Origin: Patescibacteria group bacterium
Lineage (GTDB): Bacteria > Patescibacteriota > Minisyncoccia > Moranbacterales > SCTJ01
Assembly: GCA_004297805.1 (NCBI GenBank)
Contig: SCTJ01000079.1
Coordinates: 1 to 43,398, forward strand
Reading direction: 5' to 3'
Length of the DNA stretch: 43,398 nucleotides
The notes under the pieces: model-generated
What the model saw: only the letters and a program-made list of their open reading frames with translations
Database searches by the model: none
What the model was told of the DNA's origin: nothing
Shown here: in pieces, positions 6,265 to 42,353 of the stretch
How the letters are laid out: every line of letters starts with the position of its first letter
How positions within the stretch are numbered: position 1 is the stretch's first letter
Made by a program: the position numbers and the translations under genes

Positions 6265-7332
6265 TTAAATTGACCACATATAGTAGCAAGAAAGTGGTTT
6301 CTTGTCAACCCCGTTACAACCCCTAATTTTAGATACTATATTCCCAAGTCCTTTTGCCCGGCAATGCTGCAACATCCCCAAATACGACTGCACCGATTGA
6401 TGAAAGGATTCTTCACTGATTCGTCCTTCGTTCAGATTGATTCTGCCCGCCGCGATTTTTTTGAACATCCGCCGTTTGGTTTTGGTGCGCAGTATCGCAT
6501 GAGTTGGAAAAATGACATAGCCCAAAAAATCAATACCACGATGGAACTTTTTGATGGTTACTTTACGCGGATGGAGGCTGAGCTTCAAATAAGTGCGCAA
6601 AAAATCATCTAGCAGCGGGATCATATTTTCTAGCTCAATTCTGTTATAACTAACAATAGCAAAATCATCCGCGTAGCGGACATAGTGCTTGATTCTCAGT
6701 GTGCGCTTCACGAATTGGTCTAGTTCATTGAGATAGACATTGGCTAATAGTTGACTCGTCAGATTGCCAAGCGGAATACCAATTCCTCTCCCCCTGCCCG
6801 AGGGGGAGATTGAGAGGGGGTGGGAGGGAGAGACAAAACTACAAATAATTTTCTCAATTAGCTGCCTCGTTTTTCCATCCTTTATCCTTTTGGAGATAAT
6901 GTCTATTAAGATGGCATGATCCACCGAATCGAAAAACTTGCGAATATCGCATTGCAGCACCCACACGGTGCGGGTGCGATTGCGGGATAATTTCCAAGCA
7001 AATTGATGGAACCTCTGAATGGCGCGGTGCGTGCCTTTGTCTTGGCGACTGGAATACGAATCAAAAATGAAAGTCCGTTCGAAAATGGGTTCAATTACTC
7101 GCGTAATGGCATGGTGGAGTAGGCGGTCTCGGACACTGGCCTTGTGGATGCGTCTGGGTTTTGGGTCACACACCGAAAATGCGGTATACTGGGAATGTTG
7201 GTACTGATTGCCGACTAAATCGGCATGCAATTCGAAAACTTTTTTTTCCAGATTGAGCGCAAATTCCTGCACATCTCGTTTCTTTTCTTTACCCTTTTTG
7301 AACTCCCGCCAAGCGGCAAACAGGTTTTCCAA
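6265..7332 (-). CDS. DGR-type reverse transcriptase
   Basis: RT motifs CDIRKFFDSVDH, IPLGNLTSQLLANVYLNELD (DGR-type GxxxSQ motif), YVRYADDFAIV, FLGYVI; adjacent TR/VR pair. TTG start at 7332 is uncertain. Confidence 0.92.
   Translation of the reverse strand: MENLFAAWREFKKGKEKKRDVQEFALNLEKKVFELHADLVGNQYQHSQYTAFSVCDPKPRRIHKASVRDRLLHHAITRVIEPIFERTFIFDSYSSRQDKGTHRAIQRFHQFAWKLSRNRTRTVWVLQCDIRKFFDSVDHAILIDIISKRIKDGKTRQLIEKIICSFVSPSHPLSISPSGRGRGIGIPLGNLTSQLLANVYLNELDQFVKRTLRIKHYVRYADDFAIVSYNRIELENMIPLLDDFLRTYLKLSLHPRKVTIKKFHRGIDFLGYVIFPTHAILRTKTKRRMFKKIAAGRINLNEGRISEESFHQSVQSYLGMLQHCRAKGLGNIVSKIRGCNGVDKKPLSCYYMWSI
6785..6817. repeat. REP-like GC-rich palindrome inside the RT coding sequence
   Basis: CCTCTCCCCCTgcccgAGGGGGAGattgAGAGG. 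Confidence 0.5.
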
Positions 7333-7389: not shown

Positions 7390-7763
7390 ATGACCCCCCC
7401 CCCGGCTTTTCCGAACCTGTCATTTTTCATAAGCTTTCTGTTTTGTATCTCGCGACCCACCGGCGCGTGATTGGTTTTTCCAAGCCGTCACGCCATTCGC
7501 TGGGCGTACGCCTGGAAAATACTCTCTTGGAAATTATTGAACTTGGTTATCTCGCTCTTGGGAAACAGGGAACATCGCGGTTAATGATAATTAGCAAGCT
7601 AGACATTAAATTGCGTATCTTTTTCACGCATCTGCGCCTGGCTCACCAAACACGCTGCTTGAACGATGCCGGATACGCCGAACTTTCTCAGCACTCAGTT
7701 GAACTTGGAAAAATGATTGGCCATTGGATCAAGGCAACGAAAACCGCGCTGAATGCGCGGTGA
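7390..7763 (+). CDS. avd: Avd-like DGR accessory protein (four-helix bundle); reading frame interrupted near start by a 10-C tract
   Basis: Translation ...PVIFHKLSVLYLATHRRVIGFSKPSRHSLGVRLENTLLEIIELGYLALGK...LDIKLRIFFTHLRLAHQTRCLNDAGYAELSQHSVELGKMIGHWIKA matches the Avd/S23-like pattern; tool ORF begins at TTG 7443, ATG at 7390 is out of frame by one. Confidence 0.78.
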
Positions 7764-7775
7764 CGTCTGTTTCTT

Positions 7776-7897
7776 CAAGAGAATACCACCCCGTTGTTCG
7801 ACCACTCATTGTCAGGCTGATTCCTGTTCACGTTCGCTCCAGTCGCATTCGCGTTGCCGAAGTTGAGCAGATTGCCATCGGAAGAGGTGCTGTATTT
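7776..7897 (-). repeat. DGR template repeat (TR)
   Basis: 122-bp ungapped match to 8170-8291; adenines on the minus strand are replaced in the other copy. Confidence 0.92.
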
Positions 7898-8074
7898 GCC
7901 TGATGCCATCCGAAGCTGCACTGGAACGGACGCGGACCAAACCGCATCAGTACCGATTGGTGGGGACACATTATGTGCGCGCTCCTTTCCCCCTGGTCAT
8001 TTTCCCGCGCCAGCACCAGACAAGCAGAAACATTTGGGAGCGTGACGCTTGCGCCACGCTGCATTACCAACTTC

Positions 8075-8083
8075 ATTATATCA
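8075..8083 (-). promoter_or_regulatory. extended -10 promoter TGA-TATAAT, candidate for TR transcription
   Basis: Perfect TGnTATAAT on the minus strand between the target gene and the TR. Confidence 0.5.
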
Positions 8084-8099
8084 CAGAAATAACGCGAAA

Positions 8100-8126
8100 C
8101 TCTTTGTCCCTGACCGGGACAAAGAG
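8100..8126 (-). terminator. hairpin CTCTTTGTCCC-tgacc-GGGACAAAGAG downstream of the DGR target gene
   Basis: 11-bp perfect stem with 5-nt loop; could be a terminator or a DGR homing-associated hairpin. Confidence 0.6.
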
Positions 8127-8162
8127 AATTGCCAAAAACTCAAAAATTCAAAAATCAAAGAT

Positions 8163-9197
8163 TCAACTGCAAGAGAATACCACCCCGTTGCCCGACCACT
8201 CATTGCCAGGCTGATTCCCGCGCACGCGCGCTCCAGTCGCATTCGCGTCGCCGAAGCGGAGCAGAGCGCCACCGGAAGAGGTGCGGCTTGACCAAGAATA
8301 ATTGCCATCGGTGAAGAGTTGCTGCCCTTTTTTGTGGGCTACTAAATAGCGAAAGATGGTGTTTTGGACCGGTTCGCGCAGGAGTCGGGAAACTTGGAGA
8401 GTGGAAAGAATTTGGGAGGCTTTGATGTAGTCACCTTGCTTGATTAGTTTGGCGATTTCGGGTTTTCTTTTTTTGAATTCAGTTTCAGCGGTTTGATACT
8501 CAACTGGGAGACTTCCGGCAAAAACGTTTTGCTTGGCATATTGGATGAGGAGTTCTGTTTGTTTTAGATAGTCCTTGCCAGTGGAATCTGGCAGGATATT
8601 GGGTGAGACGAATTGCCAACCCGCTTTGGGAGTTTGTTGAATAACCTGAGTTTCATTTTTGAACCAGGCCTCGGTTTTGAGATTACCTTGGTCATCGAAT
8701 TGATCTTTGTATAATAAATATTTGGCGGGATTTCCTTGTTGGTCACGTTCGATGACATTGCTACCAATCTGCGCTATGGCCAGTTTAGCCATGGTTTCAA
8801 TGGTAAGTGGGGTGCCGTCGGGAGCATGGGAGAGATTCAAGACCAGCATGTGGCCCAGTCTTTGGTGGAGTTCCAACTCCTCTTTCTTGAATGGAATGGG
8901 CGGGATGTCCTGGGGTTTGATCTGGAAACCAAAAGCTCGTTCTAGGTCTTGGGGGCCAAGGAATCTTTCTGGTCCCATGATCCTTTCAGCTTGTTCGGGA
9001 GAGACGTGGAATTGTTCGCGGAGACTAGATATTCTAATTTCCAGCTCTCTTTGCAGGCTTTCGGCTTGGTTCAAATGGCCGAGGCTAGTTTCGGTATCTT
9101 GAGTCTTTTCGCCCTGGACTAGCAGCGTGTCAAAATCAGCCTTGAGCTTTTGGATTTCAGAAAGATTGTCGGCTATTTGGTGGCAGTTGGATTGCAT
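8163..9197 (-). CDS. DGR target (variable) protein, N-terminal coiled-coil module and C-terminal VR
   Basis: MQSNCHQIADNLSEIQKLKADFDTLL...; C-terminus WSSRTSSGGALLRFGDANATGARVRGNQPGNEWSGNGVVFSCS encoded by the VR; start trimmed to ATG at 9197. Confidence 0.9.
   Translation of the reverse strand: MQSNCHQIADNLSEIQKLKADFDTLLVQGEKTQDTETSLGHLNQAESLQRELEIRISSLREQFHVSPEQAERIMGPERFLGPQDLERAFGFQIKPQDIPPIPFKKEELELHQRLGHMLVLNLSHAPDGTPLTIETMAKLAIAQIGSNVIERDQQGNPAKYLLYKDQFDDQGNLKTEAWFKNETQVIQQTPKAGWQFVSPNILPDSTGKDYLKQTELLIQYAKQNVFAGSLPVEYQTAETEFKKRKPEIAKLIKQGDYIKASQILSTLQVSRLLREPVQNTIFRYLVAHKKGQQLFTDGNYSWSSRTSSGGALLRFGDANATGARVRGNQPGNEWSGNGVVFSCS
8170..8291 (-). repeat. DGR variable repeat (VR) at the 3' end of the target gene
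   Basis: Ungapped alignment to TR, 19 mismatches, 18 at TR adenines. Confidence 0.92.
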
Positions 9198-9299: not shown

Positions 9300-9322
9300 T
9301 ATATCACGCGCTATTGGTAAAT

Positions 9323-9379
9323 GTATATACACATGTATATACACGTGTATATACATTAGTATAGCATTGGTACGTACCT
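9323..9379 (-). promoter_or_regulatory. shared promoter/operator module, copy A
   Basis: 45-bp identical to 28906-28950; contains TGC-TATACT extended -10, GTATATAC repeats and TACGTACCT. Confidence 0.75.
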
Positions 9380-27066: not shown

Positions 27067-28761
27067 CTACATCCAGTCGCTGTCCGGTGCTGGCAGGCGA
27101 AAAATTAATTTTATTCCGGCGTGCCAGGCTCTGTCTATATTGTAAGAATAAATCCCCAGCCCCATCGCCTCACTACTGGTCACAATAAAACAACTTTGTT
27201 TGTTACCATCAGATAAAGGATTCATGGCGATATGCGTGAGTCCACTAGTTGGATGATCTAGACTCACACTTATGGCGGTATCGGCTGGACAAGTCTTTAG
27301 GCCGAGTTGCTCCGCCCTACGATAGACATCATACATGTCCACATCTGGATCGCTATCTGGATAGGCAAAAAATCCCAGGTCCTCCACGGAAAGACGGACC
27401 AGCCTGATCTTTCTCGGTCTTGGAGCAATGACAAACCCATTATCCTCAATCATTCGCCGAGCGTGTACCTCAATCTCAACTTGATTCTCCTCCAATTCTC
27501 TCAGGAGCAGCTCCTTGCCTTTCCCGCCGACTGTCACCTCAAATGACTCGGCCTTGCCTTCAAGTCCATGTTCTTTGGCCCAATGACGAAACTGAGACAC
27601 CGGATTTTCAATCGCCATGTCCAGCCACGCAATCTTGCTCTCTAGATCACTCTGCAATTTATTCACCGCCTCAAACTCTTTAGTCATCTCCACCCTCGAT
27701 ACCGCCGCGTCAAAATCCGCTTTCATCTTTTGGACAGCACTCAGTTCATCAGCGATTTCTTGGCAATTGGGTTGCATAATATAACTGGCTATAAAATCAG
27801 CTACGGGAAATAACCACGCCCTTAAGCCGGCATTGCCAGGACTCCTCTCAGCGATAGCCGCGCCTGCATCGGTAAAAGCGCCAACACTTACTAGCTTACC
27901 ATTGGCAGCCAACCGATTAGTCCACGTGGCCCCATCAGCCAACAGTCTTTGATCGTTTGTGAGCAGATACACCGCAATATCATATATAGCCTCGGCTGGA
28001 GTCTGTCGCGCAAGCTGGTTGATCTGCAGGGCGGACATTTCCTTGGCATATTTCAATCTGCCCCTGCCATCCAGGATTTCACTCAAACCATCATCATGCA
28101 ACCTGACAAACTCCGGATAAGCGAAAGCATAGTCTTCAAATTCTTTGATGGCCTGCTGATAGCGGAACGGCATGGATTGACCAGCGAATACTTCGTCTCG
28201 AATGTAAGCAACGATATTTTGGGTCTGCCGGAAATAGTTTTGTTCAGCCGAATCGGGAATTGTTTTGGCCGAAACTAATGCCCAACGCGGTTGGATTGGA
28301 TCAGCTTCCCAAAATGGTTCGTTGTATTCCAGACTAAAAGTAACTTTGCCATAACCCGCTTGATCAAATTGTTCCCGGAGCGCATCACGGACATTTCTCG
28401 TAGTAAGTGGCTGGCCATATTTATCTTTTCCAATCCGCAAAATCAAAAACTGCCCGAGTTCTTTGGCACGTTCCAGCTCTGCTTTTTTGAAAGGAATCGG
28501 CGGAATGTCTCGAGTCTCCAATTTGAAACCAAACGCCTTCTCAATCGCCTTGGCACCGAGAAAGTCTTGCCCCAGGATAACCTCAGCCTGCTCAAATGAA
28601 ACCAATATCAAATCATGCAGAGAAATTAAATTAATTTCAATTTCTTGTTGGAGCGTTTTGGCCGCCTCCAAATCACCCGCTTTCAGCACCGCATCAAATG
28701 CAGCTTTCACCTTCTGGACAGCACTCAGCTCATCAGCGATTTGTTGGCAATTGGGTGGCAT
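27067..28761 (-). CDS. tandem two-module paralog of the DGR target protein (564 aa)
   Basis: Two N-terminal modules (MPPNCQQIADELSAVQKVKAAFDAVL; MQPNCQEIADELSAVQKMKADFDAAV) matching MQSNCHQIADNLSEIQKLKADFDTLL; shared AFGF...DIPPIPFKKxELE. Confidence 0.85.
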   Translation of the reverse strand: MPPNCQQIADELSAVQKVKAAFDAVLKAGDLEAAKTLQQEIEINLISLHDLILVSFEQAEVILGQDFLGAKAIEKAFGFKLETRDIPPIPFKKAELERAKELGQFLILRIGKDKYGQPLTTRNVRDALREQFDQAGYGKVTFSLEYNEPFWEADPIQPRWALVSAKTIPDSAEQNYFRQTQNIVAYIRDEVFAGQSMPFRYQQAIKEFEDYAFAYPEFVRLHDDGLSEILDGRGRLKYAKEMSALQINQLARQTPAEAIYDIAVYLLTNDQRLLADGATWTNRLAANGKLVSVGAFTDAGAAIAERSPGNAGLRAWLFPVADFIASYIMQPNCQEIADELSAVQKMKADFDAAVSRVEMTKEFEAVNKLQSDLESKIAWLDMAIENPVSQFRHWAKEHGLEGKAESFEVTVGGKGKELLLRELEENQVEIEVHARRMIEDNGFVIAPRPRKIRLVRLSVEDLGFFAYPDSDPDVDMYDVYRRAEQLGLKTCPADTAISVSLDHPTSGLTHIAMNPLSDGNKQSCFIVTSSEAMGLGIYSYNIDRAWHAGIKLIFRLPAPDSDWM

Positions 28762-28879: not shown

Positions 28880-28905
28880 ATTTGATTTCTGTGGTAATGA
28901 CAAAA

Positions 28906-28962
28906 GTATATACACATGTATATACACGTGTATATACATTAGTATAGCATGAGTACGTACCT
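28906..28962 (-). promoter_or_regulatory. shared promoter/operator module, copy B
   Basis: 45-bp identical to 9323-9367, then 3 divergent bases, then TACGTACCT. Confidence 0.75.
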
Positions 28963-35959: not shown

Positions 35960-36036
35960 ATTCAAAAAGTCGAAACCCCCTCCGCTCGCTGAGCAAAGGG
36001 GGTTCGGGTTCGTTGTTGTTGTGGAGTCGCTACTCC
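35960..36036 (-). repeat. 3' module repeat copy A (hairpin terminator plus stop-codon context), downstream of guaA
   Basis: Near-identical to 37721-37800. Confidence 0.8.
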
Positions 36037-37720: not shown

Positions 37721-37800
37721 ATTCAAAAAAGTCGAAACCCCCCTCCGCTCGCTGAGCAAAGGGGGGTTCGGGTTCGTTGTTGTTGTGGAGTCGCTACTCC
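37721..37800 (-). repeat. 3' module repeat copy B
   Basis: Near-identical to 35960-36036, differing mainly by homopolymer lengths. Confidence 0.8.
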
Positions 37801-41013: not shown

Positions 41014-41178
41014 AGTTACTTCATCATAGCGTTTCTAAGCAATCTGGCAACCTGGCCCAATCTGAGTTTGGATTGACTAGCGTATATTTTGATGCTAGCC
41101 TGGCCTATCGCTGGAACAAGTCTCAGCGACACTCAGTTCATCCAACACGCAACCCATCACCAGGAGGAGGTAGATTCG

Positions 41179-41673
41179 ATGGCAAAGCGAGCAACCAAGG
41201 AGTCGTACCAACGGACGGCCAACCGGGTGCTGAAAGCCCTGCTGGCCATGCCCAACAACGGCCTCACGAAGCGCCACCGCGGCGGCTGGTTCAGCCGCCG
41301 CGATCACCGTGGCACGGTCCGAACCTATTTCATGATCGGACACCCACCGTACCGCGATCGGGACAAGTGCCTGAGACTCTCCCTGTATAATGGCCAGCGT
41401 CTGCACTCCCACCCGGAGCACCTCAGCAGCTGGCAGAGTCGCCGCCCGAAGCTCCGCTGGTACGGAGGCGCCATCCGGATGACGGACGGCGGATCGCTCT
41501 CTTTCTGGGGTCTCCCCGAGAAGGCCAACGAGGCGCTGGTGCTCATGGTCGCCTTGATCCGCGGTCGCATCTCCTTCCACGAAGAAATCGGGTTCATCAC
41601 CACCGAAAGCCAGAACGACCTCTTCTTCAAGTTCGGAGAATACCTCTGCAGCCGCCTCGGCTGGTTCAAGTAG
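41179..41673 (+). CDS. hypothetical protein, member 1 of a tandem paralog pair
   Basis: MAKRATKESYQRTANRVLKALLAMPNNGL..., SD GGAGGAGG, terminator 41692-41730. Confidence 0.75.
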   Translation: MAKRATKESYQRTANRVLKALLAMPNNGLTKRHRGGWFSRRDHRGTVRTYFMIGHPPYRDRDKCLRLSLYNGQRLHSHPEHLSSWQSRRPKLRWYGGAIRMTDGGSLSFWGLPEKANEALVLMVALIRGRISFHEEIGFITTESQNDLFFKFGEYLCSRLGWFK

Positions 41674-41730: not shown

Positions 41731-41870
41731 CAATCTTTTTATTAAAGTATCCGTACTTTAACATCTGATCTAAGATTGACTGTCAGACTTACTAATGATA
41801 ACCTGTCTAGCGCTGGAATGGGTAATGGAAAAATCGATTCGGTTCGACGCCACAAAGGGAGGGACGTTCA

Positions 41871-42353
41871 ATGGCGACAAGAGCAACCAGAGAGTCGTAC
41901 GAACGAATGGCCAATCGGTTCCTCAAGGAACTGCTGGCCATGCCCAATAACGGGCTCAAGCCTCATCACCTCGGCGGCTATCTCACCCGACGCGGCCCCG
42001 ACGGCAGGATCCGCTTCACCTACGTGATCGGCAACCCGCCGGTCGAGCGACAGAAGGAGTATGGAGAATACTCGCGAGAGAAGGGCCGGCGCCTGAACGT
42101 TCACCCGCACCATTTCAGCAGCTGGTGGAGTCGCCGCAAGCGCCTCAAGCAGTACGGCGGTGCCATCCGAACAGAAGATGGCGGCTCGCTCTCCTTCTCG
42201 GGCACGAACGAAATGGCCGAGGAGGCGCTGGCGCTGCTCATCGCCGACGCCCGTGGCCACATCACCCACGAGAACATGCTGAGGGTCATCAAGAAGAGCC
42301 GCAACCACCTCTTCATCCGGTTCTGCGCCTACTACCACCTCTGCGGGATCTGA
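41871..42353 (+). CDS. hypothetical protein, member 2 of a tandem paralog pair
   Basis: MATRATRESYERMANRFLKELLAMPNNGL..., terminator 42381-42419. Confidence 0.75.
   Translation: MATRATRESYERMANRFLKELLAMPNNGLKPHHLGGYLTRRGPDGRIRFTYVIGNPPVERQKEYGEYSREKGRRLNVHPHHFSSWWSRRKRLKQYGGAIRTEDGGSLSFSGTNEMAEEALALLIADARGHITHENMLRVIKKSRNHLFIRFCAYYHLCGI

Follow-up and report, generated by a model that had tools for sequence, protein, structure and literature searches.

A conserved repeat tract between reverse transcriptase and avd as a probable on/off switch of patescibacterial diversity-generating retroelements

The reverse transcriptase (RT) and avd genes of a patescibacterial diversity-generating retroelement (DGR) face each other across a conserved simple-sequence repeat tract, and both are out of frame as assembled in the genome analyzed here. 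We consider it highly likely that slipped-strand phase variation of this tract gates the DGR hypermutator, a reading for which tract lengths were compared between relatives, one genome per species. The broader reading is also probable: across the candidate phyla radiation (CPR), DGR hypermutation would be under a stochastic on/off switch, in which the repeat has been re-invented with different units at two alternative sites and toggles RT and Avd, in many cases the two together by means of a single tract in the overlapping antisense pair. This larger point lies outside the interval of an earlier note on the same DNA, which described a template repeat (TR) and variable repeat (VR). The window, by which we mean the whole stretch of 43,398 nucleotides that was analyzed, contains the following features of the cassette:

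6265 to about 7430, − strand: DGR RT; ATG at 7430–7428, domain frame from about 7394 downwards
6783–6830, no strand assigned: G-rich palindromic insert, in frame in RT and immediately before GIPLGNLTSQ; single copy in the genome
7390–7763, + strand: avd; ATG at 7390, conserved domain frame 7404–7763
7394–7403, no strand assigned: C10 tract (G10 on the RT strand), within the 5′ ends of both avd and RT; candidate phase switch
7776–7897, − strand: TR; its 3′ 21 nt (7776–7796) form an invariant IMH*-like tail
8100–8126, no strand assigned: hairpin directly beyond the target stop, with an 11-bp stem and a 5-nt loop (z = −3.5)
8163–9197, − strand: target gene, 344 aa; start set by analogy with the paralog MPPNCQQIAD
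8170–8291, − strand: VR at the 3′ end of the target gene; IMH-like tail 8170–8190

Read along the − strand, the target with its VR comes first, followed by TR and RT; avd lies on the + strand between TR and RT. We recomputed the gapless 122-bp alignment of TR and VR and found 103 of 122 positions identical, with 19 differences. The earlier note had counted by hand 18 of these 19 changes at TR adenines on the coding (−) strand, and the computed ungapped comparison gave the same result. From TR to VR, the − strand shows 11 A>G, 6 A>C, 1 A>T and 1 T>A; the last is the sole non-adenine change, which had been placed near the outer edge and indeed lies 4 nt from the outer 5′ edge. The codon changes listed in that note were also correct. 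Because only 34 of the 122 template bases are A, the probability of at least 18 of 19 differences falling at A by chance is about 2e-11 (hypergeometric P = 2.4e-11). The 3′ 21-nt tail (CAACGGGGTGGTATTCTCTTG) is unchanged between the two repeats although it contains three adenines, as expected of an IMH, and is predicted to be IMH-like. The VR is in frame with the target gene and stops 7 nt before the target ORF does. The 8100–8126 hairpin lies just past the target stop, at a site where a hairpin or cruciform is common in DGRs. The 1.40 Mb genome (250 contigs) contains one Avd and one VR for this TR, and a search of it returned no further TR-like matches or extra VRs.

The reading of the two repeats as a DGR pair is supported by the substitutions at adenines, seen directly in the window, and by the adjoining DGR RT, Avd and target. 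The RT carries YADD and LGNLTSQ, in agreement with the DGR-type YxDD and [IVL]GxxxSQ motifs, and matches RVT_1 (7e-23), the phage RT family phrog_1423 (2e-112) and PDB 8ub7 (8e-44); its nearest relatives are Patescibacteria. Avd matches three models, PF22296 (6e-9), NF033474 (3e-12) and phrog_3206 (1e-13), two of which have a curated cut-off that the Avd score falls below. An automatic search detected adenine-biased repeat pairs, arranged much as they are here, in 48 of 180 loci, the window and 47 relatives, with the TR copy about 460–620 nt before the RT domain. Given the DGR RT, the Avd, the adenine-biased pair and the similar layout in relatives, the basic TR/VR finding is of a known kind, and the cassette is by itself an ordinary patescibacterial DGR. 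By analogy with such systems, RT and Avd would copy the TR RNA with adenine errors, and the cDNA would replace the VR, yielding new variants of the C-terminal target surface. A second DGR in this genome was considered and rejected, as there is only one Avd, and the other RT match (G000:C169:106-555; L308) is an RT-like fragment with an in-frame stop and no accompanying Avd match.

In the window, RT and avd are arranged head to head and overlap at their 5′ ends; their only plausible ATGs are at 7430 (−) and 7390 (+), respectively. In the assembly, the frame from the avd ATG terminates after 26 codons, the ATG and the domain being in different frames, and the frame from the RT ATG likewise fails to join the RT domain. 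Both genes need a tract length of 2 mod 3, which the assembled length of 10 is not; homopolymer length in draft assemblies can be off by one at single loci, the window included. The genome has only four sites with at least nine G, of which this tract is one. An alternative explanation is that the cassette is a plain DGR, with frame breaks that are assembly errors or decay and a tract that has no role. The window is indeed known from a single draft assembly, G10 tracts are error-prone, and a one-base error would put both genes in frame. This explanation is nonetheless unlikely in light of the relatives, where the tract is kept in independent assemblies with different units, including easily sequenced penta- and dinucleotides, where frames are mixed across loci, and where coding sequence past the break is under selection.

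Head-to-head order of RT and avd was found in 73 of 80 patescibacterial relatives in the first sample, so that divergence is the rule among them and the idea of a divergent avd peculiar to the window was rejected. Among 257 distinct divergent pairs, 179 have a simple-sequence repeat at the junction, and 55 have neither tract type by the criteria used. A further 23 have a repeat inside RT, at nt 523–577 just before GxPxGN, a share inflated in the first set because split-RT loci (L216–L235) were deliberately fetched for it. Junction and interior repeats never occur together (0/257; Fisher 9e-14). A hold-out of 77 loci yielded 59 junction tracts and 1 interior tract. At the junction, poly-G/C runs of at least 8 nt occur at about 900 times the density found in the remaining 1.4 Mb of the same loci. 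Of 203 tracts, none has a unit length that is a multiple of 3, compared with 11 of the 82 found in other parts of these loci (P = 7e-7). The repeat class changes at least 39 times on the RT tree, a pair at 92% identity has (GA)6.5 versus (GA)8.5, and a pair at 86% identity has G8 versus (GA)12 in otherwise similar sequence. Across all loci, 4 of 29 assembly gaps fall at the RT/avd junction, as expected of a length-variable tract. For a within-species comparison of lengths, the duplicate loci came from identical genomes, and the genus sample was too small. Of 69 DGR RTs from viral contigs retrieved with the same query, none has a poly-G or dinucleotide tract where RT begins, and in these viral DGRs avd shares a strand with RT in 58 of 58.

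Several smaller features accompany these tracts. The palindromic insert at 6783–6830 of the window occupies the very loop in which relatives have interior repeat tracts, and this site holds the in-frame palindrome instead of an interior poly-G. Within RT of L223, L231, L232 and L235, a small hairpin (CGATTTT...AAAATCGAGAGAG) often precedes the (GA)n tract and may represent a unit that moves or recombines. A poly-G/C run lies just past RT in two loci that lack a junction tract, C13 at about RT+1094 in L058 and G9 at about RT+1032 in L036.

The junction loci fall into two classes: in about half, the RT start lies beyond the tract; in the other class the RT start comes after the tract, which is then crossed by avd alone. 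In the first class no ATG separates the tract from the RT domain, so that translation of RT must begin on the far side of the tract or at a non-ATG codon. Among the unambiguous loci of this class, the tract length that brings RT into frame is the same as that needed by avd in 37 of 39 from the first set and in 15 of 15 from the hold-out, 52 of 54 in total. After clustering of RTs at 70% identity, this holds for 18 of 20 clusters (P = 2e-7); at 60% identity nearly everything merged into a few clusters, which were of no use as a test. In nearly all loci where RT crosses the tract, the RT ATG is antisense to an in-frame avd codon and the avd ATG to an in-frame RT codon, usually His, and this mutual arrangement accounts for the shared length by giving both genes common codon boundaries. 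Two CCTGT loci show no such coupling. Of 153 unambiguous loci, avd is in frame in 35, and its three states are represented by 35, 74 and 44 loci. One out-of-frame state is over-represented (74/153). In 62 of 179 loci, GTG or TTG codons in the avd frame are found between the tract and the domain, and some of these loci could therefore produce a shorter Avd. In RTs broken by an interior tract, pN/pS is 0.24–0.43 after the break, similar to the part before it, and such purifying selection indicates that these genes are not decaying.

All 147 mononucleotide tracts have G on the RT strand. This bias favors another alternative, in which the tract is not a frame switch but a structural or transcriptional element, such as a G-quadruplex, promoter spacing or a segment of the DGR RNA. 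Also in favor of this alternative is the existence of poly-G promoter switches in other systems, such as that of meningococcal porA (PMC3639595). However, G (7–13) is replaced at the same place by GA, GT, CT, CCTGT or ATTG, never by a multiple of 3, the RT and avd frames agree across the tract, and the alternative site lies in the middle of the RT coding sequence; we therefore regard such an element as very unlikely. Programmed ribosomal or transcriptional frameshifting at the tract, which would give both products from one DNA state and account for selection on out-of-frame genes, is barely credible, because both shift directions are found, tract lengths differ between close relatives, and neither ribosome nor polymerase slips readily on GA or CCTGT repeats.

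We therefore return to phase variation by slipped-strand mispairing, which builds on what is observed of the tract, its position, the frames, its conservation, its unit types and the selection downstream of it. As at phase-variable loci, a unit not divisible by 3 lies across a translated gene, and both in-frame and out-of-frame lengths occur among relatives. In the proposed mechanism, the repeat between the two ATGs would be read by both RT and avd, and mispairing would alter its length, moving both genes in or out of frame; elsewhere avd alone would be switched, or RT alone through an interior tract. In the in-frame state, RT and Avd would be made and the VR rewritten, whereas out of frame the current target variant would be retained. 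Only a minority of cells would thus diversify the target at a time, the rest keeping the variant they have. The rate of slippage, its effect on protein levels and its benefit are what we infer from this model.

In the DGR of Bordetella phage BPP-1, avd, TR and RT lie on one strand, and no repeat switch is known there. The window cassette resembles this system (RT structure 8ub7) in its RT and Avd families, TR/VR pair with changes at adenines, IMH-like tail and hairpin after the VR, and differs from it in that avd is divergent and overlaps RT. The tract itself resembles contingency loci of Neisseria, Campylobacter and Haemophilus, with a homopolymer or short-unit repeat in the 5′ coding region, a unit that is not a multiple of 3 and mixed frames. 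To our knowledge, known contingency loci switch surface, restriction-modification and metabolic genes; in the patescibacterial loci, by contrast, the switched gene would be a programmed mutator, and one tract would serve two divergent genes. Roux et al. 2021 (PMC8144416) describe the DGRs of the CPR as clade 2; the window cassette resembles these in its DGR RT, Avd, adenine-specific TR/VR pair and the placement of the VR at the 3′ end of a target that has no recognizable domain. The main text of that paper does not mention a repeat tract, frame switch, avd, orientation or phase variation. The full-text literature searched contained no description of DGRs with repeat tracts or phase variation; since the main CPR paper, Paul et al. 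2017 (Nat Microbiol), lies outside this coverage, the novelty of the repeat switch is stated with reservation.

With a switch of this kind, a single locus would combine two textbook mechanisms of diversity. A useful receptor that was rewritten all the time would come at a cost, and a phase switch on the mutator would be a simple way of limiting DGR activity. Furthermore, surveys that accept only DGRs with an unbroken RT or Avd ORF will overlook many patescibacterial systems or split them wrongly.

The target protein has no family match in Pfam, NCBIfam or PHROG. Its structure model is confident (pLDDT 88.5), yet Foldseek returned no significant match in the PDB or among viral models, formylglycine-generating enzymes appearing only at E values of 2.8 and above. 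A C-type-lectin (CLec) fold can thus be suggested by analogy only. The N-terminal domain of the target belongs to a family with about a dozen paralog loci in the genome, including 27067–28761 (−) of the window and loci on contigs C178, C225, C190, C17, C101, C152, C203, C59, C158 and C131 of the same assembly (G000). The C225 paralog ends in a sequence that resembles a VR of another DGR type; no TR for this end was found. A 68-bp element with repeated TGTATATACA palindromes, present in 91% identical copies at 9312–9379 and 28895–28962, lies upstream of both the target gene and the 27067–28761 paralog and may be a shared operator of the two. The window also contains duplications at 41166–41349 / 41858–42041 and at 35973–36036 / 37736–37800, the latter a short palindromic element followed by almost identical sequence.
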